38,920 nucleotides of DNA, taken from Caldimonas manganoxidans ATCC BAA-369 (GTDB taxonomy: Bacteria; Pseudomonadota; Gammaproteobacteria; Burkholderiales; Burkholderiaceae_C). Location of the stretch: positions 1 to 38,920 of the forward strand of contig NZ_KB905955.1 of NCBI RefSeq assembly GCF_000381125.1. The letters run 5' to 3'. The notes beneath the pieces were generated by a model. The model did no database searches. It saw only the letters and a list, made by a program, of their open reading frames with translations, and was not told the DNA's origin. This document shows positions 7,817 through 20,066 of this stretch, piece after piece. A program made the translations under genes and the position numbers. Position 1 is the stretch's first letter, and the number at the start of each line of letters is the position of its first letter.

Positions 7817-8740
7817 TCAGACCCGTGTCAGCCATTGCGCGTACTTGGGATTGCGGCCATTGACGATGTCGAAGAAGGCCGTTTGGATCTTTTCGGTGAT
7901 CGGGCCGCGCTCGCCGGCACCGATCTGGATGCGATCGAGCTCGCGGATCGGCGTGACCTCGGCGGCCGTGCCGGTGAAGAAGGCCTCGTCGGCGATGTAG
8001 ACCTCGTCGCGCGTGATGCGCTTTTCGATGAGGTCGATGCCCAGGTCGCGGCAAATGGCGAAGATGGTGTTGCGCGTGATGCCATTGAGCGCCCCGGCTG
8101 ATAGATCGGGCGTGTAGACCACGCCGTTCTTGACGATGAAAAGATTCTCGCCAGCGCCTTCGGAGACGAAGCCGGCCGCATCGAGCAACAGGGCCTCGTC
8201 ATAGCCATCGTCGGTGGCTTCCATGTTGGCCAGGATGGAGTTGGTGTAGTTGCTCACCGTCTTGGCCTGCGTCATCGTGATGTTGACGTGATGACGCGTG
8301 TAGCTGCTGGTCTTGACGCGAATGCCGCGCTTCAAGCCTTCTTCGCCCAGGTAGGCGCCCCAGGCCCAGGCGGCGATCATCAGGTGGATGGTGTTGCCCT
8401 TGGGGCTGACGCCCAGTTTTTCCGAGCCGATCCAGGTCAGTGGGCGGATGTAGCAGCTGTCGAGCTGGTTGGCGCGCACGACTTCTTTCTGAGCCTCCAT
8501 CACCTGTTCGACGGTGTAGGGGATCTTCATGCGCAGGATCTTGGCGCTGTTGAACAGGCGCTCGGTGTGCTCGCGCAACCGGAAGATGGCCGTGCCTTGG
8601 GCGGTGTGGTAGGCACGCACGCCCTCGAAGGCGCCGCAGCCGTAGTGCAGCGTGTGGGTCAGCACATGGATCTTGGCGTCGCGCCAGTCCACCAAGCGGC
8701 CATCCATCCAGATTTTGCCGTCGCGGTCTTCCATGCCCAT
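7817..8740 (-). CDS. ilvE: Branched-chain amino acid aminotransferase
   Basis: IlvE interconverts leucine, isoleucine and valine with their 2-oxo acids using glutamate/2-oxoglutarate and PLP, the last step of branched-chain amino acid synthesis. The 307-aa fold-type IV protein shows LTHTLHYGCGAFEGVRAY, the PLP lysine K160 in AKTVSNYTNS, and ALLLDAAGFVSEGAGENLF. This wording and the lysine position match E. coli IlvE rather than D-amino acid transaminases. The ATG at 8740 follows an AGGAG element. The gene is in a same-strand series: BCCT transporter, 134-aa membrane protein, ilvE, CHCC zinc finger. Confidence 0.96.
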   Translation of the reverse strand: MGMEDRDGKIWMDGRLVDWRDAKIHVLTHTLHYGCGAFEGVRAYHTAQGTAIFRLREHTERLFNSAKILRMKIPYTVEQVMEAQKEVVRANQLDSCYIRPLTWIGSEKLGVSPKGNTIHLMIAAWAWGAYLGEEGLKRGIRVKTSSYTRHHVNITMTQAKTVSNYTNSILANMEATDDGYDEALLLDAAGFVSEGAGENLFIVKNGVVYTPDLSAGALNGITRNTIFAICRDLGIDLIEKRITRDEVYIADEAFFTGTAAEVTPIRELDRIQIGAGERGPITEKIQTAFFDIVNGRNPKYAQWLTRV

Positions 8741-8777
8741 GCAAGGCTCCTCGGAAATTCGGGGTAAAGCGGCGATT

Positions 8778-9182
8778 TTACGGGGGTGAGGGCGCATCCG
8801 CGCCGGCGGCGTCGGGGCGCCACAGCGTCCAGCGCACGAGCTTGCCGCCGCGCAGCTCCAGCGTGACGTGGGAGCCGCCGGGGTCGGTCCAGCGGTAGGC
8901 TTCCGGCTCGTCGCTGACCTTCTGGCCCAGGCTGCGCGTCATCATCACGATCTGGAGCATCGGCAGGCCCTTGCGTAGCTTGGCATTGAGCATCACGGCG
9001 CTGTCGATGTAGCCGATGGGGGCGCTGCCGGCCTGGCGCATCACGCGCACGGCCTTGTTGAACTGCAATAGCAGCCAGAAGGTGATGGCCGAAAAGGCGA
9101 ACAGCAGGCCTTGCCAGCCATACTGTTGCCAAGCCAGCAGGGTGAACAGGGCCGCCAAGCCCCAGCCGATCCAAGGATTCAT
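8778..9182 (-). CDS. Conserved small membrane protein, unknown function
   Basis: A 134-aa protein beginning MNPWIGWGLAALFTLLAWQQ. Its two closely spaced hydrophobic segments (about residues 4-18 and 23-42) are followed by a basic cytoplasmic stretch (NKAVRVMRQAG) and a mixed soluble tail containing RWTDPGGSHVTLELRGGKLV. I do not recognise the family beyond a general impression of a conserved Burkholderiales hypothetical. It begins 10 bp after the BCCT gene stop and ends 37 bp before ilvE on the same strand, so co-transcription is likely. Confidence 0.7.
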   Translation of the reverse strand: MNPWIGWGLAALFTLLAWQQYGWQGLLFAFSAITFWLLLQFNKAVRVMRQAGSAPIGYIDSAVMLNAKLRKGLPMLQIVMMTRSLGQKVSDEPEAYRWTDPGGSHVTLELRGGKLVRWTLWRPDAAGADAPSPP

Positions 9183-9192
9183 GGGCGTGATC

Positions 9193-10764
9193 TTAGGGGC
9201 TGCGCCCCGGCGGCGGCTGCGTAGTGTCCGCAATCTCGGCGGCTGAGGGCTGGCCGGCCAGCTCCCGCATGCGCTGGCGCAGGGCGCGTTCGCGACGTTG
9301 TTCCAAGCGCCAGTCTTGGCGCACCGCCAGCCACAGCGACACCGCCATGCCCACGATGACCACGGTGAAGGGCAGGGCGAAGACGATGGTGGCCGTCTGC
9401 ACCGCTTGCACCCCGCCGGACATCAACAGCGTGATGGCGATGCCGGCCACCAGCACGCCCCAGATCAGCTTGACGCGGGCGCTTGGATTGGGCTGGCCCT
9501 GGGTGCTCATCATGCCCAGCACCAGCGTGGCCGAGTCGCCCGAAGTGACGAAGAAGATCAGCACCAGCACGGTGGCCGCCAGCGACATCACCATGCCCAA
9601 CGGCAGCGCGTCGAACATGGCGAACAGGGCGGTGGAGACATCGGCTTTGACCGCCTCGGCCACCGGCACGCCCTGGAAGATCTCCAGGTGCAAGGCCGTG
9701 CCGCCGAAGACGGCGAACCAGACGAAGCCGGCCAGCGTGGGCGCCAGCACGGTGCCGATGACGAACTCGCGGATCGTGCGCCCCCGCGAGACCCGCGCGA
9801 TGAACAGGCCCACGAAGGGGGACCAGCTGACCCACCAGGCCCAGTAAAACACCGTCCAGCTGCTCACCCAGTTGCTGTCGCGAAAGGGTGTGGTGCGCAG
9901 GCTCATGCGGACGAACTCGCTGAGATAGGCCCCCAGCGTGGTCGTGAAGGTGTCGATGAGCGCCACGGTGGGCCCCAGCAGGAAGACCATCAGCGCCAGC
10001 GCGCCGGCCAACACGAGGTTGGCGCTGGACAGCCATTTGATGCCGCGAGTCACGCCGCTGAGTGCCGAGGCAAGGAAGATCGCCGTCACCCCCAAGATGA
10101 TGGCCACCTGCACGGCCTGCCCCACCGGCACACCGAAGACGGTGTGCAGTCCGCTGTTGATCTGCAGCGCGCCAATGCCCAGTGAGGCCGCCACGCCGAA
10201 GGCCGTGGCCACCACGGCCAGCACGTTGACCACGGGCGACAGCCGCCGCAGCGGCTGCCAAGGCAGGGCGTCGGTGGACGCACTCACCAGGGCGGGCGCC
10301 CCACGGCGAAACTGGAAGAAGGCGATGCTCAAGCCGACCACCGCATACACCGCCCAGGGGTGCAGGCCCCAATGGAAGAAGGCGTAGCGCATGGCTGCAT
10401 GGGCGGCCTCGGGGGTGCGCGGCGCGATGCCCGGCGGCGGCGAGGTGTAGTGGGAGATCGGTTCGGCCACGCCCCAGAACACCAGGCCGATGCCCATGCC
10501 CGCGGCAAACAGCATCGCAAACCAGGCGCCGATGGAGAACTCGGGCTCGTCATCTTCGGCGCCGAGCTTGAGCTCGCCATAGCGGCTGAAGGCCAGCAGC
10601 AAGGCCAGCGTCACCAGTCCCAACACCACCCACAAATAAAACCAGCCGAAGTTGTGGGTGATGCGGCTCAGGGCGGTGTCGAAGAACGCGCCCAGCGAGG
10701 TCGGCGCCAGCAGGCCCCACAACACGACGGCCAGGATCAGTCCGGCCGAGACGATGAGTTGCAT
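9193..10764 (-). CDS. BCCT-family betaine/carnitine/choline transporter
   Basis: A 523-aa inner-membrane carrier with about 12 hydrophobic segments. The family signatures are GMGIGLVFWGVAEPISHY near residue 90 and the tryptophan-rich WTVFYWAWWVSWSPFVG around residues 305-325, which lines the quaternary-amine site. BCCT proteins take up glycine betaine, choline or carnitine with Na+ or H+, mainly for osmoprotection. The C-terminal tail is short and charged (RLEQRRERALRQRM), not the long regulatory domain of BetP. The ATG at 10764 has a GGAGGA ribosome site. An own promoter with an overlapping inverted repeat lies upstream. Substrate and coupling ion are not determinable here. Confidence 0.93.
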   Translation of the reverse strand: MQLIVSAGLILAVVLWGLLAPTSLGAFFDTALSRITHNFGWFYLWVVLGLVTLALLLAFSRYGELKLGAEDDEPEFSIGAWFAMLFAAGMGIGLVFWGVAEPISHYTSPPPGIAPRTPEAAHAAMRYAFFHWGLHPWAVYAVVGLSIAFFQFRRGAPALVSASTDALPWQPLRRLSPVVNVLAVVATAFGVAASLGIGALQINSGLHTVFGVPVGQAVQVAIILGVTAIFLASALSGVTRGIKWLSSANLVLAGALALMVFLLGPTVALIDTFTTTLGAYLSEFVRMSLRTTPFRDSNWVSSWTVFYWAWWVSWSPFVGLFIARVSRGRTIREFVIGTVLAPTLAGFVWFAVFGGTALHLEIFQGVPVAEAVKADVSTALFAMFDALPLGMVMSLAATVLVLIFFVTSGDSATLVLGMMSTQGQPNPSARVKLIWGVLVAGIAITLLMSGGVQAVQTATIVFALPFTVVIVGMAVSLWLAVRQDWRLEQRRERALRQRMRELAGQPSAAEIADTTQPPPGRSP

Positions 10765-10798
10765 GGTGTGTCCTCCGCAGAACCGCAAAAAGGGCGCG

Positions 10799-10832
10799 AT
10801 CCTAGGCGCTTCGTTACATTGAGACAAATGTA
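10799..10832 (-). promoter_or_regulatory. BCCT transporter promoter with operator-like inverted repeat
   Basis: Read on the minus strand, TTGTCT (forward 10822-10827) and TAGGAT (10799-10804) are separated by exactly 17 bp and make a plausible sigma-70 promoter, with transcription starting about 30 bases before the ATG. A 6-6-6 inverted repeat TACATT/AATGTA (10815-10820, 10827-10832) overlaps the -35 box. The 9-mer TACATTTGT in it recurs in the same orientation at 10896-10904, 72 bp further upstream. A regulator binding both copies is plausible. Confidence 0.5.
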
Positions 10833-10913
10833 TGGCCCGAAAGCCGCACCGCCGTGCTGCGAATTGTGTCCCCGGCCAGCAAGGACATCTTTAGCACAAA
10901 TGTAGCTTGAAGG

Positions 10914-12281
<1,368 letters not shown>

Positions 12282-12303
12282 GGGGGGCGATTGTGGCCCC
12301 GTC

Positions 12304-12675
12304 TCAGCGCAGGAAGAACAGCGCGACCACTGCGCCGGCCAGCAGCGTGCTCACCCCCATCAGCACCCGGGTGCGCAGCCGCAGGGTGTCGACGGCGGCC
12401 ACCAGGCGTTCGTTGTGCTGGGCCAGGGCCTGGATCAGCTCGCTGGAGGCCACGGCCTCGCGGCTGAGTTCGGCCACGCGCTGTTCGAGCTGGGCCAGCC
12501 GGGCTTCGGGGGAGATGGGAGTGGCGGCCGCATCTTGCATCGCCGAGGCGGCGGCGGAGTCGTCCTGGCGCACTTTGCTCCACAACTGCTTGGCCCCCCG
12601 CACGATGGTCGGTGTGGCTTCGATGACATCCTTCCAGGGGATGATCTTGAAGGCGGTGATCCAGGGAAAAGCCAT
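12304..12675 (-). CDS. Small coiled-coil protein with C-terminal membrane anchor
   Basis: A 123-aa protein starting MAFPWITAFKIIPWKDVIEA. It has a central coiled coil (about residues 58-100, EARLAQLEQRVAELSREA onward) and one C-terminal transmembrane helix (about 103-121, LMGVSTLLAGAVVALFFL). The architecture is that of a tail-anchored protein with its bulk in the cytoplasm. The family is a conserved hypothetical that I cannot name. It lies between the thioesterase and radA genes with 12- and 22-bp gaps, suggesting co-expression. The function is unknown. Confidence 0.75.
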   Translation of the reverse strand: MAFPWITAFKIIPWKDVIEATPTIVRGAKQLWSKVRQDDSAAASAMQDAAATPISPEARLAQLEQRVAELSREAVASSELIQALAQHNERLVAAVDTLRLRTRVLMGVSTLLAGAVVALFFLR

Positions 12676-12687
12676 GGCAAGCTCCGC

Positions 12688-13167
12688 TCAGGCGTTCTTG
12701 ATGCCCAGGTAGCGCTGCTCGAGCTCCCGGCGCAGCTGCTTGCGCAGCAAGGCGGCCTGGTGGCGGCGCTGTTCGTCCGGCGTGGTCGGGGTCAAGGGCG
12801 GCACCGGCGTGGGCCGGCCTTGGTCATCGACGGCCACCATCGTGAAAAAGCAGCTGTTGGCGTGGCGCACGACCTGGGTGCGAATGTTCTCTGCCACCAC
12901 CTTGATGCCGACTTCCATCGAGGAGTTCCCGGTGTAGTTCACCGACGCGAGGAAGGTGACCAGCTCGCCCACATGGATGGGCTGGCGGAAGATCACCTGG
13001 TCGACCGAGAGGGTGACCACGTAGCGTCCGGCGTAGCGGCTGGCGCAGGCATAGGCCACTTGGTCGAGCAGTTTGAGGATGGTGCCGCCGTGGACATTGC
13101 CGGAAAAATTGGCCATGTCCGGCGTCATCAGCACGGTCATCGTGAGTTGGTGGCTGGGCAGGTCCAT
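12688..13167 (-). CDS. Acyl-CoA thioesterase, hot-dog fold (YciA-like)
   Basis: A 159-aa single hot-dog protein of the YciA/acyl-CoA hydrolase group, which cleaves acyl-CoA to free acid and CoA. The start MDLPSHQLTMTVLMTPDMAN, the active-site segment NFSGNVHGGTILKLLDQVAY and DQVIFRQPIHVGELVTF are characteristic. The C-terminus is an Arg/Leu-rich helix (RKQLRRELEQRYL). The ATG at 13167 is 4 bp after the antiporter stop, indicating translational coupling. Chain-length preference cannot be read from the sequence. Confidence 0.9.
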   Translation of the reverse strand: MDLPSHQLTMTVLMTPDMANFSGNVHGGTILKLLDQVAYACASRYAGRYVVTLSVDQVIFRQPIHVGELVTFLASVNYTGNSSMEVGIKVVAENIRTQVVRHANSCFFTMVAVDDQGRPTPVPPLTPTTPDEQRRHQAALLRKQLRRELEQRYLGIKNA

Positions 13168-13171
13168 GCAG

Positions 13172-14245
13172 TCAGTGCGATCGCGAGGGGAAGGGGCGAC
13201 GAATCACCATCACCGCCAGGGTGACGATGGTCAGGGGGATCACGAAACTCATCATGACGGTGGAATAGGCCCCCAAGGCCTCATGGTGTTGGGCCGCCAG
13301 AACGAGGTAGGCCGTGTAGGCGCCATAGTAGGCCAGCAGCACACCGCCTTCCCAGCGCGCGATCTGGCGGCCGGTCATGAAAATCGGCAGGCAGGCCAAC
13401 AAGGTGGCCATCATCACCCACAGGTCGAAGTTGCGCACGGCCTCGGGAATGGGCAGGCCGCCGTCGGCCACGACGCCGGCCAGGCCCAGGCAGCCCAGGA
13501 TGTTGAAGAGGTTGCTGCCGACCACATTGCCCACGGCGATGTCGCGCTGGCCACGCAAGGAGGCGGTGACCGAGGCGGCCACCTCCGGCAACGAGGTGCC
13601 GGCGGCCACGATGGTCAGGCCGATGACCACATCGCTGACGCCCAAGGCGCTGGCAAAGGCGGTGGCCGCCTGCACGAGCCAGCGCGAGCCCAGCACCAAC
13701 GCGGCCAGTCCGACCAGCACCAGCAGGATCTGCACGCTCCAATGCCGATCCCACTGGCTGGCCGGTGCGTCGGCCGCGAACTCGCTTTGTTCTTGCGCCG
13801 GCGCGCGGCGTGCCTGCACGATCAGAAAGATGGTGTAGCCCAGCATCAGCGCCAGCAGCAGCGCCGCCTCGGGCCTCGAAATGACGCCGTCCAGGGCCAT
13901 GGCCACCAACACGAGCCCGGCGGCCAACATGAGGGGCACTTCTTGCCGAATGACTTGCACGTGCACGACCAGTGGCGCGATCAAGGCCGACAGGCCCAAG
14001 ATGAACAGCACATTGAACACGTTGCTGCCCACGACATTGCCCACGGCCATCTCGGTGGCGCCTTGCGCGGCCGCGCCGACGGAGACGGCCATCTCGGGTG
14101 CGCTGGTGCCGAAGGCCACCACGGTCAGTCCGACCACCAGCGGGGAAATGCCCCAGGACAGCGACAAGCGCGAGGCCCCGCGCACCAAGGCTTCGGCGCC
14201 CGCGACCAAGGCCATCAGGCCGGCGATGAAGGTGACGATGGACAT
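13172..14245 (-). CDS. Calcium/sodium antiporter (CaCA family, YrbG-like)
   Basis: A 357-aa inner-membrane cation exchanger with about ten hydrophobic helices and the two inverted alpha repeats of the CaCA superfamily. Repeat 1 carries VAFGTSAPEMAVSV and GNVVGSNVFN; repeat 2 carries VAAGTSLPEVAAS and GNVVGSNLFN. The conserved acidic residues in the two PE motifs are the cation ligands. It exchanges Na+ or H+ against Ca2+. The ATG at 14243-14245 is preferred over upstream in-frame codons because it begins directly with the first helix. It is the first gene of the antiporter-thioesterase-coiled-coil-radA run and is divergent from the XRE-methyltransferase gene. Confidence 0.93.
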   Translation of the reverse strand: MSIVTFIAGLMALVAGAEALVRGASRLSLSWGISPLVVGLTVVAFGTSAPEMAVSVGAAAQGATEMAVGNVVGSNVFNVLFILGLSALIAPLVVHVQVIRQEVPLMLAAGLVLVAMALDGVISRPEAALLLALMLGYTIFLIVQARRAPAQEQSEFAADAPASQWDRHWSVQILLVLVGLAALVLGSRWLVQAATAFASALGVSDVVIGLTIVAAGTSLPEVAASVTASLRGQRDIAVGNVVGSNLFNILGCLGLAGVVADGGLPIPEAVRNFDLWVMMATLLACLPIFMTGRQIARWEGGVLLAYYGAYTAYLVLAAQHHEALGAYSTVMMSFVIPLTIVTLAVMVIRRPFPSRSH

Positions 14246-14305
14246 GCTCCTGCCTCCATGAGTTGCCGCCATGGTGCCATGACCGGCGGCCCCCCGGAGG
14301 CATCC

Positions 14306-14331
14306 TTGCAGGCAAGGCCGTTCGATATAAT
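14306..14331 (+). promoter_or_regulatory. Probable promoter of the XRE-cupin-methyltransferase gene
   Basis: A perfect TATAAT lies at 14326-14331, 52 bases before the ATG. The nearest -35-like hexamer, TTGCAG at 14306-14311, is only 14 bp away, which is short; at 17 bp the sequence is a poor TCCTTG. Weak basal recognition with an activator or autoregulator would fit a HTH-regulator gene, but this is inference. Confidence 0.45.
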
Positions 14332-14382
14332 GGACGCCACGCGCCGGCTCAGGGGGGCGAGTATTCACTCAGGGAGGGCGAC

Positions 14383-16368
14383 ATGGCATCGGTGCAGACG
14401 ATCGGCCGCGCGCTGCAGCGCTTTCGCCACCAGCGCGGGCTCAGCCTGGCGGGCTTGTCCGAGCGCAGTGGTGTGGCCAAATCGACGCTGTCGCAGCTCG
14501 AAAACGGCGAAGGCAACCCCACGATCGAAACCCTGTGGGCGGTGGCCAATGCCTTGGGCGTGCCTTTCGGTGTGCTGATCGACGACGGCGGCGGCGAGCA
14601 GCCCGCCTGGGGCGGCCCTGGCGTGCATGTTCGATTGATCGAACGATCGCGCGACGATCCCGAGATCGAGGTCTACACGATCGAACTGTTGCCGGGTTGC
14701 CGCAAGGAGTCGGCTCCGCATTTGCACGGCGTGAAAGAACGGGTGACGGTGCTGGCCGGGACGATGTTGGCCGGGCCGGCGGATCGCCCGCGCTTGCTGC
14801 GTTCGGGCGAAACCCATGTGTTCGAAGCCGATGTCTCCCATGTGTATGCGGCCCATGAGCATGGTGCGCGGGCCTTGGTCTTGATCGAGTATCCGCCCAA
14901 GGCCTATGGCGGCTGTGCCTCCACACTGTACGTGCCCCAGCCCGCCGATGCGGCGGCGTGGGAGGGCTTGCTCGGGGTGTTGGAGCGGGCCTTGTTGGAG
15001 GTGTCCAATGGCTTGGGCGTGCGCTTGTTGCGCTTGCGCGGCGAGCCCGAGCCCGGACGGGACGGGCGGCAGCTGTGGGCGCAGGCCCTGGCCGAGCTGC
15101 AAGCCGGTCCGTGGCCTTGGCCGGTGCATGCCTTCGTCGAGGAGGATGCGCAAGGGCCGTTCATCGGCCTGGTGCCGATGCTGGCCTGTTCGGCCTTTTT
15201 CGGCGAATGGGCGCCGCAGGCCTGGTCGGCCCAGCCCTTGCCCCAGCGATGCCTGCGTTTGGCCCGGTGGGCGCAATCGCCCACGACCCCTTTGGGCGAG
15301 GACGATGTGCGTTCGTTGGTGGCGGACCTGGAGTCGCCCTCGTGGGTGCTCAATGGGTTGGCGCTGGAGGTGTCGCTGCAGCGTGGCCAACGGCGCTTGC
15401 CGCGCGTCTTGCGGGCCGGCTTGCCCGAGGGGGCGTCCTGCCCCGAGCGAAGCGGGCCGCTGGGCAGCCGCATCGATGTCGAGCAGTACGATGCCTTCGA
15501 GTTGCTGCACCCGGCCTATGCGCGTCAGGTGGTGGCCGCCGCGCAGGACATCGCCAGCGCGGCATCGGCGCCACCGTCGGGCTTGGTCATCGACGTGGGC
15601 AGCGGCCCTGGGCTGCCCTTGTTGATGTTGCGCGAGCTGCACCCGTCATTGGAGTTCTTGGCCGTGGAGCCCGATGAGGCGGCCTATGCCTGCTTGCAGC
15701 GCCGCACCGGCCAGACGCCGGGCATCGAGACCCATCGGGGCGATTTCCTGGCCTTGGAGTGGCCGGCAGCGCGCACGTCCTTGATCACGTCCTTCGGGGC
15801 CTCGCATCACTTGAACACCGCCTTCATGTTGCACAAGGCCGCGGCGTTGTTGCAGCCCGGAGGCTTGTTGGTGGTGGCCGATGAGTTCCTGCCCGAATTC
15901 ACCAGCGTCGAAGAACGCCATGCGGCCTTGGTGCGGCATCACGGGGCGTATTTGCTGGCCAGCATGGCCTGGGTGGGCGAGCCGTGGCCCCAGGCCCATG
16001 GGGAGGACGCGCGGCTGTACCGGGACTTCCGTCGCACGGTGTTGATGGCCTCGATGGCCGCCGCCGAAGGGCGGGGCGCCCAGGCCGTGGGCATGTGCCG
16101 TCAGCTCTACGCCCGCCTGTGCGACTCCGAGGTGCGCCGCTGGCCGCAAGACGAGTTGGGCGCCTTCGTGCGGTTTTATTGGCTGGAGCTGCAAGCCATG
16201 GTGGCCGGCTTCGACTATGAAGTCGAACGCAAAACCTTTGCGCGGCGCTTTGCCGGTTTGGCGGCTTTGGCCGGTTTGGAATTGGTGCGTCACCGCCGGG
16301 TGTTCGCGACCGTGGGGCAAGACGATTGGGGCGGTGGCACGCATGTGTTCGCGTTCCGCAAGCCATAG
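14383..16368 (+). CDS. XRE regulator-cupin-SAM methyltransferase fusion protein
   Basis: A 661-aa single-frame protein. Residues 5-62 form an XRE helix-turn-helix (IGRALQRFRHQRGLSLAGLS, SGVAKSTLSQLENGEGNPTI). Residues 105-175 form a cupin with a complete first metal motif (H113, H115, E119, then LAG) and a second-motif histidine in SHVYAAHEHG. Residues 180-390 are a region I do not recognise. Residues 398-520 are a class I methyltransferase with SAM motif VIDVGSGPG (402-410), EPDEAAY, a GDFLALEW acidic strand and LQPGGLLVVADEF. The C-terminus (to 661) is helical, with no membrane segment. The first two domains look like a normal cupin-type repressor of AzlCD exporters; the methyltransferase is the unusual addition. 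The ATG follows AGGGAGG. Leucine is often TTG, more so than in neighbouring minus-strand genes. azlC starts 5 bp after the stop. Confidence 0.88.
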   Translation: MASVQTIGRALQRFRHQRGLSLAGLSERSGVAKSTLSQLENGEGNPTIETLWAVANALGVPFGVLIDDGGGEQPAWGGPGVHVRLIERSRDDPEIEVYTIELLPGCRKESAPHLHGVKERVTVLAGTMLAGPADRPRLLRSGETHVFEADVSHVYAAHEHGARALVLIEYPPKAYGGCASTLYVPQPADAAAWEGLLGVLERALLEVSNGLGVRLLRLRGEPEPGRDGRQLWAQALAELQAGPWPWPVHAFVEEDAQGPFIGLVPMLACSAFFGEWAPQAWSAQPLPQRCLRLARWAQSPTTPLGEDDVRSLVADLESPSWVLNGLALEVSLQRGQRRLPRVLRAGLPEGASCPERSGPLGSRIDVEQYDAFELLHPAYARQVVAAAQDIASAASAPPSGLVIDVGSGPGLPLLMLRELHPSLEFLAVEPDEAAYACLQRRTGQTPGIETHRGDFLALEWPAARTSLITSFGASHHLNTAFMLHKAAALLQPGGLLVVADEFLPEFTSVEERHAALVRHHGAYLLASMAWVGEPWPQAHGEDARLYRDFRRTVLMASMAAAEGRGAQAVGMCRQLYARLCDSEVRRWPQDELGAFVRFYWLELQAMVAGFDYEVERKTFARRFAGLAALAGLELVRHRRVFATVGQDDWGGGTHVFAFRKP

Positions 16369-16373
16369 ACCGC

Positions 16374-17069
16374 ATGAGATCGGGGGTGTTCAGCGGCTTG
16401 GCCGACAGCGTGCCGATCGCGGCCGGCTATGTGCCGGTGGCTTTTTCTTTCGGCTTGGCTGCGGTGCAGATGGGGCTGGGCGCCGCTTGGGCGGTGGCCA
16501 TCTCGGCCTTGGTGTTTGCCGGGGCCAGCCAGTTCGTGCTGCTGTCGTTGTGGGCCGCGGGGGGCGCGCCACTGGCGGTGGTGCCCACGGTGTGGCTGCT
16601 CAATGCGCGCCACTTGCTCTACGGCCAGGTGGTGGCCGAGCAGCTGGCGCAGGCGCGGTCGGCCCGGGTGTCGTCCACGCTGGCGTTTGGCTTGACGGAC
16701 GAAGTCTTCGCCTGCGCAGCCACGCGTCTGCCCGGTCTGCCCCCCGAGCGACGGGCCGGCTGGCTGGCCGGTCTTCAGGCCGGGGCCTATGGTGCCTGGA
16801 TCGCCGGGACCGCGCTGGGGGCCGCCGCAGGGGCTCAGTGGGTCGATCGGTTCCCGCTGCTGCGCGAGGCCTTGCAATTCATGTTGCCGGCGCTGTTCCT
16901 GTCCTTGCTGTTGCAGATGGGCGTGCGCGGCCGGGCCATGGGGCTGGCGGCGGCCGCGGGCATCACGCTGCTGGGGCTGGCGCTGGCGTCGGCGTCCGTG
17001 GCCCTTCCGGCTGGCATGCTGGCCGGTGCGGCTTTCCAGTCGTTGCGAGCGGGCAGCGAGCATGACTGA
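16374..17069 (+). CDS. azlC: Branched-chain amino acid exporter, large subunit AzlC
   Basis: A 231-aa inner-membrane protein of the AzlC family, the large subunit of a two-component exporter of branched-chain amino acids and some analogues. The family signature GYVPVAFSFGLAAVQMGL, AGASQFVLLSL and the NARHLLYG motif are present, with about seven hydrophobic helices. The ATG at 16374 is 5 bp after the fusion-regulator stop, and the gene overlaps azlD by 8 bp, so the three genes form one operon. AzlCD pairs are often controlled by an adjacent XRE-cupin or Lrp-type regulator, consistent with the upstream HTH-cupin domains. Confidence 0.93.
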   Translation: MRSGVFSGLADSVPIAAGYVPVAFSFGLAAVQMGLGAAWAVAISALVFAGASQFVLLSLWAAGGAPLAVVPTVWLLNARHLLYGQVVAEQLAQARSARVSSTLAFGLTDEVFACAATRLPGLPPERRAGWLAGLQAGAYGAWIAGTALGAAAGAQWVDRFPLLREALQFMLPALFLSLLLQMGVRGRAMGLAAAAGITLLGLALASASVALPAGMLAGAAFQSLRAGSEHD

Positions 17070-17412
17070 GGCGGGCTGGACGTTGCTGCTGACGGTGCTG
17101 GCCTGCGGGCTGGGCACCTTCGTCCTGCGCGCCTTGCCGTTTTGGTGGCGCTTGCGGCGCCGCGGCGCGTCGGGCTCGCAGTCGATCCGCCGCTGGTCTT
17201 CGGCCATGGGCCCGGCGGCCCTGGCGGCTTTGCTGGTGGCCTCGCTCCATCCGCTGGTGTGGCCGGCGGCCGGCCCGGCTCGAATCCTGCCGGTGGCCGC
17301 CGCTGTGGCCGCGGTGGTGGTTTGGCAGCGTCTGTGCGGGGGACTGGTCGGTCCCACGCTGTGGGGGACGGCGGTGTATGCCTGGATGGTGTGGGTGGAC
17401 GGCGGGCCTTGA
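17062..17412 (+). CDS. azlD: Branched-chain amino acid exporter, small subunit AzlD
   Basis: A 116-aa membrane protein with three to four hydrophobic helices. It contains GLGTFVLRALPFWW near residue 15, an AMGPAALAALLVASL helix and the terminal GPTLWGTAVYAWMVW. AzlD is the small partner of AzlC and is needed for export. It starts 8 bases inside the azlC end, indicating translational coupling. The ATG at 17062 has no strong ribosome site of its own, in line with re-initiation. The convergent alr gene ends 18 bp downstream, and no clear terminator is visible between them. Confidence 0.9.
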   Translation: MTEAGWTLLLTVLACGLGTFVLRALPFWWRLRRRGASGSQSIRRWSSAMGPAALAALLVASLHPLVWPAAGPARILPVAAAVAAVVVWQRLCGGLVGPTLWGTAVYAWMVWVDGGP

Positions 17413-17429
17413 GTCGGCTGATGGTCGGC

Positions 17430-18560
17430 TTACGCGGCCTGCGGCCCCAGATCGCGGACCGTCACCGGCACGCGCGCAGCCAGCGCGCACATCAATTCAT
17501 ACGCCACGGTGTGGGCCGCCGCAGCCACTTCGTCGATGGGCAGCAGGCTGCCGTGCGGGCCCTGGCCCCACAAGGTGACTTCCGCGCCGAGGCCGGCGTG
17601 GCGACCGGCTTGCTCGACCGGCGTGAGATCCACCGTGAGCATGTCCATGGACACGCGGCCCACCACACGGGTGCGCACCCCATCGACCAGCACCGGTGTG
17701 CCGGTGCCGCAGTGGCGCGGGTAGCCGTCGGCATAGCCGCAGGCCACCACACCGATGCGCATGGGCTGCGGCGCGGTGAAGGTGCTGCCGTAGCCGACGC
17801 AGTCGCCCGCCTCCAAGGACTGCACGGCGATCAGGCGCGATCGCAGGGTCATGGTCGGCAGCAGGCCCCAGTGGCGCGCGGTGTGGGCAGGAAAATCAGG
17901 GGCCGAGCCGTACACCATGATGCCAGGGCGCACCCAGTCGGCGCGCACGTCGGGATGGTCGCCCGCGTAGCGCAAGGTGGCCGCGCTGTTGCAGAGTGAG
18001 CGCTCACCGGGCAAGTCGGTGGTGGCGGCTTGGAAGGCCGCCATCTGATGTGCGATGCCGCGTTCGTTGTCGGCATCGGAAAAATGGGTCATCAGCGAGA
18101 TCTCCTCGACTTGCGTGAGGCCGCTCAAGCGCATCCAGGCCGTGCGGAAGGCGTCGCGCTTGAAGCCCAGCCGGTTCATGCCGGAATTGAATTTGAGAAA
18201 AACCCGGTGCGGCCAGGTGGTTTTGTGGGTGGCCAGCCAGTCGATTTGCTGCTCGGTGTGCACCACATGCCACAGGTTCAAGCGCGAGCAGGCTTCGAGG
18301 TCGCGGGCCTCGAAGCAGCCTTCGAGCAGCAGAATGGGGCCGCGCCAGCCCAAGGCACGCACGCGTTCGGCCTCGGCAATGTCCAGCAGGGCAAAGCCAT
18401 CGGCCCCTTGCAGTCCGGCGTAGGCGCGTTCGATGCCGTGGCCGTAGGCATTGGCTTTGACGACGGCCCAGACCTTGGCGTCGGGGGCGGCCGCGCGGGC
18501 GCGCTGCAGGTTGCGTGCGAGGGCGTCGGGGTGGATGATGGCTTCGATGGGACGGGGCAT
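17430..18560 (-). CDS. alr: Alanine racemase
   Basis: Alr makes D-alanine from L-alanine with PLP, for peptidoglycan. The 376-aa fold-type III enzyme shows the PLP lysine K35 in [13 protein letters not shown], the LMTHFSDAD and [10 protein letters not shown] barrel motifs, RPGIMVYG, and the second catalytic residue Y257 in CVGYGSTF from the C-terminal beta domain, with GRVSMDM following. The length is normal. The ATG at 18560 was chosen over a longer in-frame reading because [18 protein letters not shown] matches the usual N-terminus. It stands alone on the minus strand, convergent with azlD and divergent from lplT. Whether it is the biosynthetic or a catabolic (DadX) copy cannot be told; no dadA is near. 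Confidence 0.94.
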
Positions 18561-18695
18561 GGCCGCTAGGCTCCGGGGCAATCCCGCCGATTCTGCCAGC
18601 CGGGCGGCCGCATCCGATGCGATGTCAGGCCGTCTTGGGCGCAGCATTCACGGGTTTTCCGGTCGGCGCCGGGGGATCGCCGCATGCTATAAACC

Positions 18696-18725
18696 CGCTC
18701 GCTTCCCGCGACGAGGAAGCAAGCG
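18696..18725. repeat. Imperfect inverted repeat between alr and lplT
   Basis: Arms of 11 bases (CGCTCGCTTCC at 18696-18706 and GGAAGCAAGCG at 18715-18725) with one mismatch enclose an 8-base spacer in the 225-bp divergent region. In minus-strand RNA the mismatch becomes a G-U pair. A TATAAA lies just upstream at 18688-18693 but has no matching -35. It may be an operator or a leader hairpin for lplT. Confidence 0.4.
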
Positions 18726-18785
18726 TTGTCTGTCGTTTCAAGGATGTCACCCTGCCCGGAAGCCGGCGCCCAGCGAGCCCAGTGA

Positions 18786-20066
18786 ATGAAAAAAGGCTTC
18801 TACACCATCATGTCGGCGCAGTTCTTCAGCTCGCTGGCCGACAACGCATTGTTCGTCGCGGCCGTGGAGCTGTTGCGGCTGTCGGGCGCTGGGGAGTGGC
18901 AGCGCGCGGCCTTGGTGCCGATGTTCGCGCTGTTTTATGTGGTGTTGGCGCCGTTCGTGGGGGCGTTTGCGGATTTCTTGCCCAAGGGCAAGGTGATGTT
19001 CGTCTCCAACAGCGTCAAGGTGCTGGGCTGCTTGATGATGCTGTTCGGCACCCATCCGCTGATGTCGTATGCGATCGTGGGCTTGGGCGCTGCGGCCTAT
19101 TCGCCGGCCAAGTACGGCATCCTCACTGAGCTGCTGCCGCCGTCACAGCTGGTCAAGGCCAATGGCTGGATCGAGGGCCTGACGATCGCCTCGATCATTC
19201 TGGGGGTGTTGTTGGGCGGGCAGTTGGTCGGCCCGGTGTTGGGGCCGTGGTTGTTGTCGGTGGACTTGCTGCCGGGCTGGGACACCGGCATCGAGACCGC
19301 GCCGCAGGCGGCGATCGCCTCGATCATCGTGTTGTACGTCTTGGCCGCGGTCTTCAATTGGTTCATCCCACGCACCAGCGCGACGCTGCAGCCGCTGCCG
19401 GCCTCGCCGCTGGAGCTGTGGCGAGACTTTCGCACCTGCAATCGCCGGTTGTGGCGCGACCGGCTGGGGCAGATTTCTTTGTCGACCACCACGCTGTTTT
19501 GGGGGGTGTCGGGGAATTTGCGCTACATCGTGCTGGCCTGGGCTGCGGCCGCTTTGGGCTATTCGACCACGCAGGCGTCTTCCCTGGTGGGGGTGGTGGC
19601 CGTGGGCACGGCGGTGGGGGCGATGGTGGCCTCGGTCTACATGCGCCTGGATCAGGCCACGCGGGTCATTCCCTTGGGCATCGCCATGGGGGTGTTGGTC
19701 ATCGGCATGAACTTCATCGACAACGTCTGGGTGGCCGCGCCTTTCTTGATCGTGTTGGGCGGGCTGGGCGGCTTCCTGGTGGTGCCGATGAATGCGCTGC
19801 TGCAGCATCGGGGCCACAACCTGATGGGCGCGGGGCGCTCGATCGCGGTGCAGAACTTCAATGAGCAGGCCTGCATCTTGGGGCTGGGCGCGTTCTACAC
19901 CGGGATGACCAAGCTGGGCTTGTCGGCGTTTGGGGCTATCACGGCGTTCGGGCTGGTGGTGGCCGGCACGATGTGGGCGATCGGGCGCTGGCATGCGCAC
20001 AATCTGCGCCACCATGCCGAGGAGGTGGAGCACTTGCTCGAGATCGCGCGCAGCGACCGTCATTGA
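18786..20066 (+). CDS. lplT: Lysophospholipid transporter LplT
   Basis: LplT is an MFS carrier that flips lysophosphatidylethanolamine across the inner membrane for re-acylation. The 426-aa protein begins MKKGFYTIMSAQFFSSLADN, the characteristic LplT opening with the ADNALF motif. It has about twelve hydrophobic segments, including YSPAKYGILTELLPPSQLVK and NALLQHRGHNLMGAGRSIAV, both typical of LplT. In enterobacteria lplT is followed by aas; here the next gene is instead an EamA-type permease 10 bp downstream, and no acyltransferase is visible in the window. No strong ribosome site precedes the ATG at 18786. Confidence 0.92.
   Translation: MKKGFYTIMSAQFFSSLADNALFVAAVELLRLSGAGEWQRAALVPMFALFYVVLAPFVGAFADFLPKGKVMFVSNSVKVLGCLMMLFGTHPLMSYAIVGLGAAAYSPAKYGILTELLPPSQLVKANGWIEGLTIASIILGVLLGGQLVGPVLGPWLLSVDLLPGWDTGIETAPQAAIASIIVLYVLAAVFNWFIPRTSATLQPLPASPLELWRDFRTCNRRLWRDRLGQISLSTTTLFWGVSGNLRYIVLAWAAAALGYSTTQASSLVGVVAVGTAVGAMVASVYMRLDQATRVIPLGIAMGVLVIGMNFIDNVWVAAPFLIVLGGLGGFLVVPMNALLQHRGHNLMGAGRSIAVQNFNEQACILGLGAFYTGMTKLGLSAFGAITAFGLVVAGTMWAIGRWHAHNLRHHAEEVEHLLEIARSDRH

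Follow-up and report, generated by a model that had tools for sequence, protein, structure and literature searches.

Why should a DNA-binding regulator with a small-molecule sensor also carry a methyltransferase, and what would such a protein do beside an AzlCD-type exporter? The question is raised by one gene of Caldimonas manganoxidans ATCC BAA-369, located in the 38,920-nucleotide stretch of DNA analyzed here (contig NZ_KB905955.1, positions 1 to 38,920; the window). Our preferred reading, to which we assign a probability of roughly one-half, is that the protein is a local autorepressor of the AzlCD operon with an appended, catalytically competent small-molecule methyltransferase, likely acting on the ligand of the repressor or on a toxic relative of that ligand.

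Domain organization of the 661-residue protein

The protein is encoded by a single frame with no internal stops in translation, and its domains are arranged, from the N to the C terminus, as an XRE helix-turn-helix (HTH), a cupin, a conserved middle region, and a class I SAM methyltransferase:

14383..16368, + strand: XRE-cupin-methyltransferase protein, 661 aa (translation, Pfam, AlphaFold2 model)
14401..14580, + strand: XRE HTH, residues 7 to 66 (Pfam HTH_3, E = 5e-15)
14623..14898, + strand: cupin, residues 81 to 172, with invariant H113, E119, and H153 (match to 1Y9Q)
14938..15420, + strand: middle region, residues 186 to 346 (model; present in a stand-alone Streptomyces module)
15469..16365, + strand: class I SAM methyltransferase, residues 363 to 661 (Methyltransf_25, E = 8e-10; phmmer to CysG; Foldseek)
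15586..15612, + strand: SAM motif I VIDVGSGPG, residues 402 to 410 (D404, G406, G408, and G410 in 14 of 14 proteins)
15805..15810, + strand: H475-H476, aligned to the HH of the CysG HHD metal site (H475 in 14 of 14 proteins, H476 in 13 of 14)
16186..16236, + strand: C-terminal signature, residues 602 to 618, around D611, E613, K617, and T618 (each in 14 of 14 proteins)

Translation and the HTH_3 match, which is above its cut-off on residues 12 to 64, confirmed the single 661-aa frame with an XRE HTH that a sequence-only reading of this DNA had described. The cupin was assigned on the basis of two matches to the XRE-cupin protein 1Y9Q: in phmmer, the N-terminal 191 residues matched it over residues 7 to 175 (E = 4.8e-17), and in a Foldseek comparison of the whole-protein AlphaFold2 model (built from 12 sequences; mean pLDDT, 81.4; pTM, 0.70) with the PDB, 1Y9Q came out on top, ahead of cupin epoxidases and class I methyltransferases. 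The Pfam Cupin_2 match on residues 101 to 161 is weak (E = 0.005) and below its cut-off. The cupin had been read as having intact H113, H115, and E119; the first and the last of these are indeed present in all 14 aligned proteins, but H115 is a histidine in only one of the 14 and so is no conserved cupin residue, the third conserved histidine being H153 (14 of 14). An NCBIfam search with the window protein gave PRK08154 as the top match, far below its cut-off and on residues 5 to 76 only. The concern that the frame could be an assembly join of two genes was settled by 20 intact full-length loci (the window and L002 to L014, L017, L045, L052, L066, L067, and L068, among which L003 to L006 are near-copies of one another), which exclude an assembly or fusion artefact and identify the frame as one gene.

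The azlCD operon, its candidate operator, and related regulators

The surroundings of the gene contain the following elements:

14320..14335, + strand: candidate operator GTTCGATATAATGGAC, consensus GTTC-N8-GAAC with one mismatch (comparison of 16 loci)
14326..14331, + strand: TATAAT, candidate -10 element lying within the operator (sequence)
14372..14378, + strand: GGGAGGG, probable ribosome-binding site (sequence)
16374..17069, + strand: azlC, exporter large subunit, 5 nt past the regulator (PF03591, E = 3e-36)
17062..17412, + strand: azlD, exporter small subunit, with an 8-nt overlap with azlC (PF05437, E = 5e-8)

The two exporter genes lie immediately downstream of the regulator gene, on the same strand, in all 20 intact loci, which bears out the link to AzlCD made in the sequence-only reading. 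The window azlC scored 68 bits against the NCBIfam equivalog TIGR00346 and did not reach its cut-off of 332. As described in the available part of PMC8140960, proteins of the LIV-E family (AzlCD/BrnFE/YgaZH) are exporters of Leu, Ile, Val, and Met and confer resistance to 4-azaleucine. Positions 8391 to 20066 of the window are colinear with the C. caldifontis locus (L002) at ~81 to 83% nucleotide identity. When neighboring ORFs of 11 loci were clustered, only genes common to the window and L002 recurred beyond the regulator, azlC, and azlD, and no further conserved operon members were found; this clustering used crude greedy longest-ORF calling, which missed true genes such as the window azlC and the L045 regulator. 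Comparison of the loci shows the regulator, azlC, and azlD to be an operon; that this operon is a self-contained three-gene efflux unit is part of our overall reading, held with the same even odds.

Directly after azlD, on the opposite strand, lies an alanine racemase gene (window 17430 to 18647), which among the 11 loci compared is in place only in C. caldifontis; a D-amino-acid link from it to the D-methionine of 1Y9Q would be speculation. A sodium/calcium exchanger gene (window 13172 to 14245; Pfam Na_Ca_ex) is divergent from the operon, and what seems, by eye, to be the beginning of this exchanger gene is present upstream in L002 and L003.

We compared the 120 bp ahead of the regulator gene in 16 loci (all intact ones except the near-copies L004, L005, L006, and L067) and identified there the sequence GTTC-N8-GAAC, an element that the sequence-only reading had not named. 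Eight of the loci have it in exact form and 13 have it with at most one mismatch, compared with 0.03 and 0.58, respectively, expected from dinucleotide shuffles; the motif had been noticed in the same sequences, and the test was thus not blind, but the margin is large. No site within one mismatch was found in the 120 bp upstream in L013, L045, and L052, and the L012 site, the center of which is not AT-rich, is doubtful. In the 13 loci, the best site begins about 21 to 63 nt ahead of the start codon, with some of the starts placed by alignment only. This comparison points to GTTC-N8-GAAC as an operator common to the fused-regulator loci, and the candidate operator at 14320 to 14335 is most likely the site at which the XRE-cupin-methyltransferase protein binds and represses. 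A scan of positions 14200 to 14450 with the sigma-70 consensus gave no complete promoter and no fitting -35 element.

The pattern GTTCNWWWWWNNGRAC, which was chosen after the sites had been seen, has one match in the 3.53-Mb genome, at the 14320-14335 locus; since the backward-read control also has one, the count is to be read as local control and not as enrichment. A loose operator pattern gave 60 sites in the same genome versus 177 in the backward control, and the genome counts therefore give no indication of a wider regulon. A perfect palindrome, CCTTGCAGGCAAGG (CCTTGC-AG-GCAAGG), lies shortly before the operator, at 14304 to 14317 of the window. It was rejected as a conserved element, being absent from the palindromes listed for the relatives.

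The fused protein is rare and patchy in its distribution. Scanning of genome contigs yielded 14 relatives, of which 13 are intact, practically full length, and 41 to 68% identical and 1 (L015) is frameshifted; among the 13 relatives in the alignment, identity to the window protein is 38 to 68%. The carriers that could be named are Caldimonas, Tepidimonas, a Hydrogenophaga MAG, Candidatus Thiobius, Halomonas/Vreelandella, Stenotrophomonas, Acidithiobacillus, an unclassified proteobacterial MAG, and Cereibacter, with an intact copy on a plasmid in Cereibacter azotoformans. With its own genome counted in each case, the full-length fusion was detected in 3 of 40 relatives and, with only the three or four top candidates of each genome scored, in 6 of 299 family genomes and 3 of 369 class genomes; a search with the module profile, counted and limited in the same way, gave full-length matches in 1 of 398 phylum genomes. 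Other apparent fusions of ~430 to 680 aa in family genomes were rejected as over-extension of the frame ahead of ordinary XRE-cupins, as judged from the printed sequence for L071, L082, and L085 and from the match position for L074, L080, and L090. On a Cereibacter sphaeroides plasmid (L046, 5899 to 10481), an IS21 element interrupts the regulator gene, and azlCD is kept. In Halomonas olivaria (L015, 6001 to 7966), the operon seems decayed, as the regulator copy is frameshifted and there is no azlC or azlD within the fetched stretch.

Eight short XRE-cupins without a methyltransferase, found in other genomes by the N-terminal match of a full-protein profile and picked for their grouping with the fused proteins, were placed in a tree built from the HTH-cupin portions of 55 proteins. 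There, these eight join the 16 fused proteins in a group of 24 members, separate from 31 other XRE-cupins (support, 100/97); the bootstrap had not settled, some long branches meet, and rows L025, L029, and L062 were left out. A single origin of the fusion was neither rejected nor established (p-AU, 0.31). GTTC-N8-GAAC within one mismatch was present in the 150 bp upstream of seven of the eight short proteins, a set counted with no shuffle control, and azlC adjoins seven of the eight, downstream on the same strand in five and on the opposite strand with weaker scores in two. The tree grouping, the shared upstream site, and the azlC neighbors together place the fused proteins within a branch of XRE-cupin regulators that are mostly linked to AzlC; the methyltransferase appears to have been gained or lost in some of these. 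Upstream of the short regulators in L096 and L100, two exact GTTC-N8-GAAC sites stand head to tail within 32 bp, a tandem pair that suggests a dimer-of-dimers operator in the methyltransferase-free operons. None of the eight short-regulator genomes has a full-length module elsewhere (two have generic core matches), and methylation is therefore not needed for AzlCD operons in general.

The middle region and the methyltransferase

A stretch of about 200 residues between the cupin and the methyltransferase had been left unassigned in the sequence-only reading. The middle region is indeed without a Pfam match (0 of 12 members), and its modeled fold (pLDDT, 75; pTM, 0.48) had its best PDB match to KhpB at an E value of 0.24, with none at E ≤ 0.001, but the stretch is no free linker and belongs to the methyltransferase module. 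This follows from a protein encoded on a plasmid of Streptomyces sp. NBC_01237 (L047, 5641 to 7083), in which the middle region and the methyltransferase occur alone, at 34% identity and without the HTH or the cupin, placing a module boundary near residue 186, with the middle region on the enzyme side. The Streptomyces gene has no azlCD beside it; it overlaps by 4 nt the next gene, the product of which has a PGM1_C domain (above cut-off) together with an ATP-grasp match that narrowly misses its cut-off. This pair of genes, the stand-alone module and the PGM1_C (ATP-grasp-like) gene (L047, 5641 to 8582), could belong to a cluster for a peptide natural product.

In the C-terminal region, Pfam Methyltransf_25 matched residues 402 to 494 above its cut-off, the SAM motif had been correctly read and placed at residues 402 to 410, and both the AlphaFold2 model and Foldseek gave a class I methyltransferase fold, as the earlier Rossmann assignment had predicted. 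Across the 14 proteins, invariant columns number 59 of 299 in the methyltransferase, 15 of 92 in the cupin, and 10 of 60 in the HTH. Among the invariant methyltransferase residues are, besides motif I, H475, D500, E501, H519, H520, D611, E613, K617, T618, H637, T653, and H654, of which D611, K617, and T618 are kept in the Streptomyces stand-alone protein and E613 is Asp there. The enzyme does not stand out by conservation alone, since the mean column identity of the methyltransferase (0.66; 14 proteins) is about that of the cupin (0.63) and below that of the HTH (0.75). A domain that only binds SAM would not obviously need invariant residues beyond motif I, and from the conserved SAM-site and other residues, as well as from the stand-alone occurrence beside an ATP-grasp-like gene, we infer that the middle region and the methyltransferase form an active small-molecule methyltransferase.

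The same residues bear on an alternative in which binding of SAM or SAH by the methyltransferase domain would serve solely to adjust DNA binding, so that a surplus of methionine or SAM would lead to methionine export with no catalysis needed. The intact SAM motif, the ability of AzlCD family members to export methionine (PMC8140960, available part), and the D-methionine held by the cupin of the Vibrio cholerae protein 1Y9Q (PMC7901475, available part) would all suit such a sensor, which we nevertheless consider improbable, because the invariance of residues outside the SAM site in 14 proteins and the occurrence of the module on its own, lacking both HTH and cupin and next to an ATP-grasp-like gene, point to catalysis. 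The earlier proposal that transcription is tied to the SAM level alone likewise appears less likely, as the invariant methyltransferase residues reach well beyond the SAM site.

The closest solved sequences to the methyltransferase part in phmmer were CysG variants (E, about 4e-7), with RHHGAYLLAS of the window protein aligned to RQHEAHVLAS of CysG and the His-His pair of CysG falling on H475-H476. A His-His pair is also common in the wider methyltransferase superfamily. The likeness to CysG may serve as a lead to the class of ligand or substrate and not as a sign of membership, because H476 is Arg in L013, the Asp of the metal site is not aligned (the CysG alignments end before D191; D611 of the window protein is invariant in 14 of 14), and phosphoethanolamine methyltransferases score similarly, near CysG in profile searches and above it by Foldseek E value. 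According to the available parts of PMC11408123 and PMC11427300, CysG and BelI transfer the methyl group to the C1 carboxyl of acids of the 3-isopropylmalate type and have a His-His-Asp calcium site. A biosynthetic role could accordingly be imagined, in which the methyltransferase would esterify a branched-chain, 3-isopropylmalate-like carboxylate as CysG does, and AzlCD, members of whose family move branched-chain amino acids (PMC8140960, available part), would export the product or relieve the pool. The sequence proximity of CysG and the aligned stretch speak for this role, whereas the modest E value and a Foldseek identity of 15 to 16% within a huge superfamily, the near-equal phosphoethanolamine methyltransferases, the third HHD ligand that is not alignable, and the Arg in L013 speak against it, and we regard it as unlikely.

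Motif IV of DNA amino-methyltransferases, (D/N/S)PP(Y/F/W), was not found after strand 4, where the window protein has TSFGASHH and the aligned relatives have no PP (by eye). A DNA methyltransferase or defence gene was rejected on this ground and because the PADLOC matches cover only the HTH or the methyltransferase core, that of mad2 being confined to residues 387 to 517. The lack of an NPPY-type motif also counts against tethering without functional coupling, i.e., a repressor merely fused to a drifting or macromolecule-directed methyltransferase. The rarity of the fusion (3 of 369 class and 6 of 299 family genomes, counted as above) and the short regulators that manage without the module are in line with such tethering, but the XRE-cupin-middle-methyltransferase-azlC-azlD order is kept in distant bacteria at 38 to 68% identity (13 aligned relatives) and many enzyme residues are invariant, so that we hold it to be rather improbable.

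Proposed mechanism and comparison with known systems

In the autorepressor reading that we prefer, the HTH would bind GTTC-N8-GAAC at its own promoter, in the window across TATAAT, and the bound protein would presumably shut off its own gene and azlCD. In the available part of PMC7901475, XRE-cupins of Pseudomonas are local repressors that leave the DNA when the cupin senses a substrate of neighboring enzymes or transporters. By analogy with these characterized proteins and with 1Y9Q, a small amino-acid-like ligand in the cupin would release the repressor, and the exporter and the methyltransferase would then be made together. The methyltransferase may methylate the ligand or a toxic relative, after which AzlCD would export the product or the signal would be cleared. 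This is the weakest step, and methylation of the ligand or its relative seems most likely because the enzyme would be made together with the exporter. It is plausible that the enzyme modifies the substrate exported by AzlCD, as the sequence-only reading had suggested, and the turnover of a methylated small molecule, also suggested there, is a variant of that reading. As leads to the ligand or substrate, methionine and branched-chain amino acids are indicated by the 1Y9Q cupin with D-methionine and by the AzlCD family, and a related carboxylate is indicated by CysG being closest by sequence.

A more specific and doubtful version is a self-resetting repressor, in which the cupin would sense an amino-acid-like inducer and the fused methyltransferase would consume the same inducer with SAM; if true, one polypeptide would detect, mark, and clear the molecule that is expelled by the co-transcribed exporter. 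Irrespective of this version, the locus is a compact, conserved case of a transcription factor, a sensor, and a modifying enzyme in one chain beside a dedicated exporter, and the recurrence of the three-gene set in distant bacteria suggests that one small molecule may be sensed, chemically modified, and exported by a single unit. What the methyl transfer contributes can be put directly to the test with the operator, the stand-alone module, and the sister operons that have no methyltransferase, and the system could bring to light a methylated amino acid or carboxylate, so far unrecorded, that leaves the cell through AzlCD-type transporters.

Fusions of a regulator to an enzyme are, as such, nothing new. 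BzdR-type XRE regulators, which have a shikimate-kinase-like C terminus and to which the sub-cut-off PRK08154 match belongs, resemble the window protein in that an XRE domain is fused to an enzyme-like domain, but the enzyme fold differs. In the open-licence papers searched, we found no description of the XRE-cupin-methyltransferase architecture or of its link to AzlC. XRE-cupin regulators such as V. cholerae 1Y9Q and Pseudomonas ErfA, PauR, and PsdR share with the window protein the HTH-cupin order and, as far as the available part of PMC7901475 goes, the apparent local control of a neighboring transporter operon, and 1Y9Q also shares the H113/E119/H153 pattern; however, 1Y9Q (192 residues) and the short relatives (mostly 175 to 250 residues) have no enzyme domain, whereas the window protein adds a module of ~470 residues. 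The stand-alone Streptomyces protein is similar in this module only. CysG and BelI are O-methyltransferases (PMC11408123, available part) with the same class I fold, and an HH pair and an RxHxAxxLAS stretch can be aligned with CysG; CysG is a stand-alone biosynthetic enzyme, whereas the window protein has the additional middle region and, as judged by length and model, extra helices at residues 541 to 580. AzlCD/BrnFE/YgaZH systems of the LIV-E family have the same AzlC and AzlD Pfam families and a regulator beside the exporter, but that regulator is Lrp-type in the available part of PMC8140960, whereas in the window it is an XRE-cupin-methyltransferase protein.
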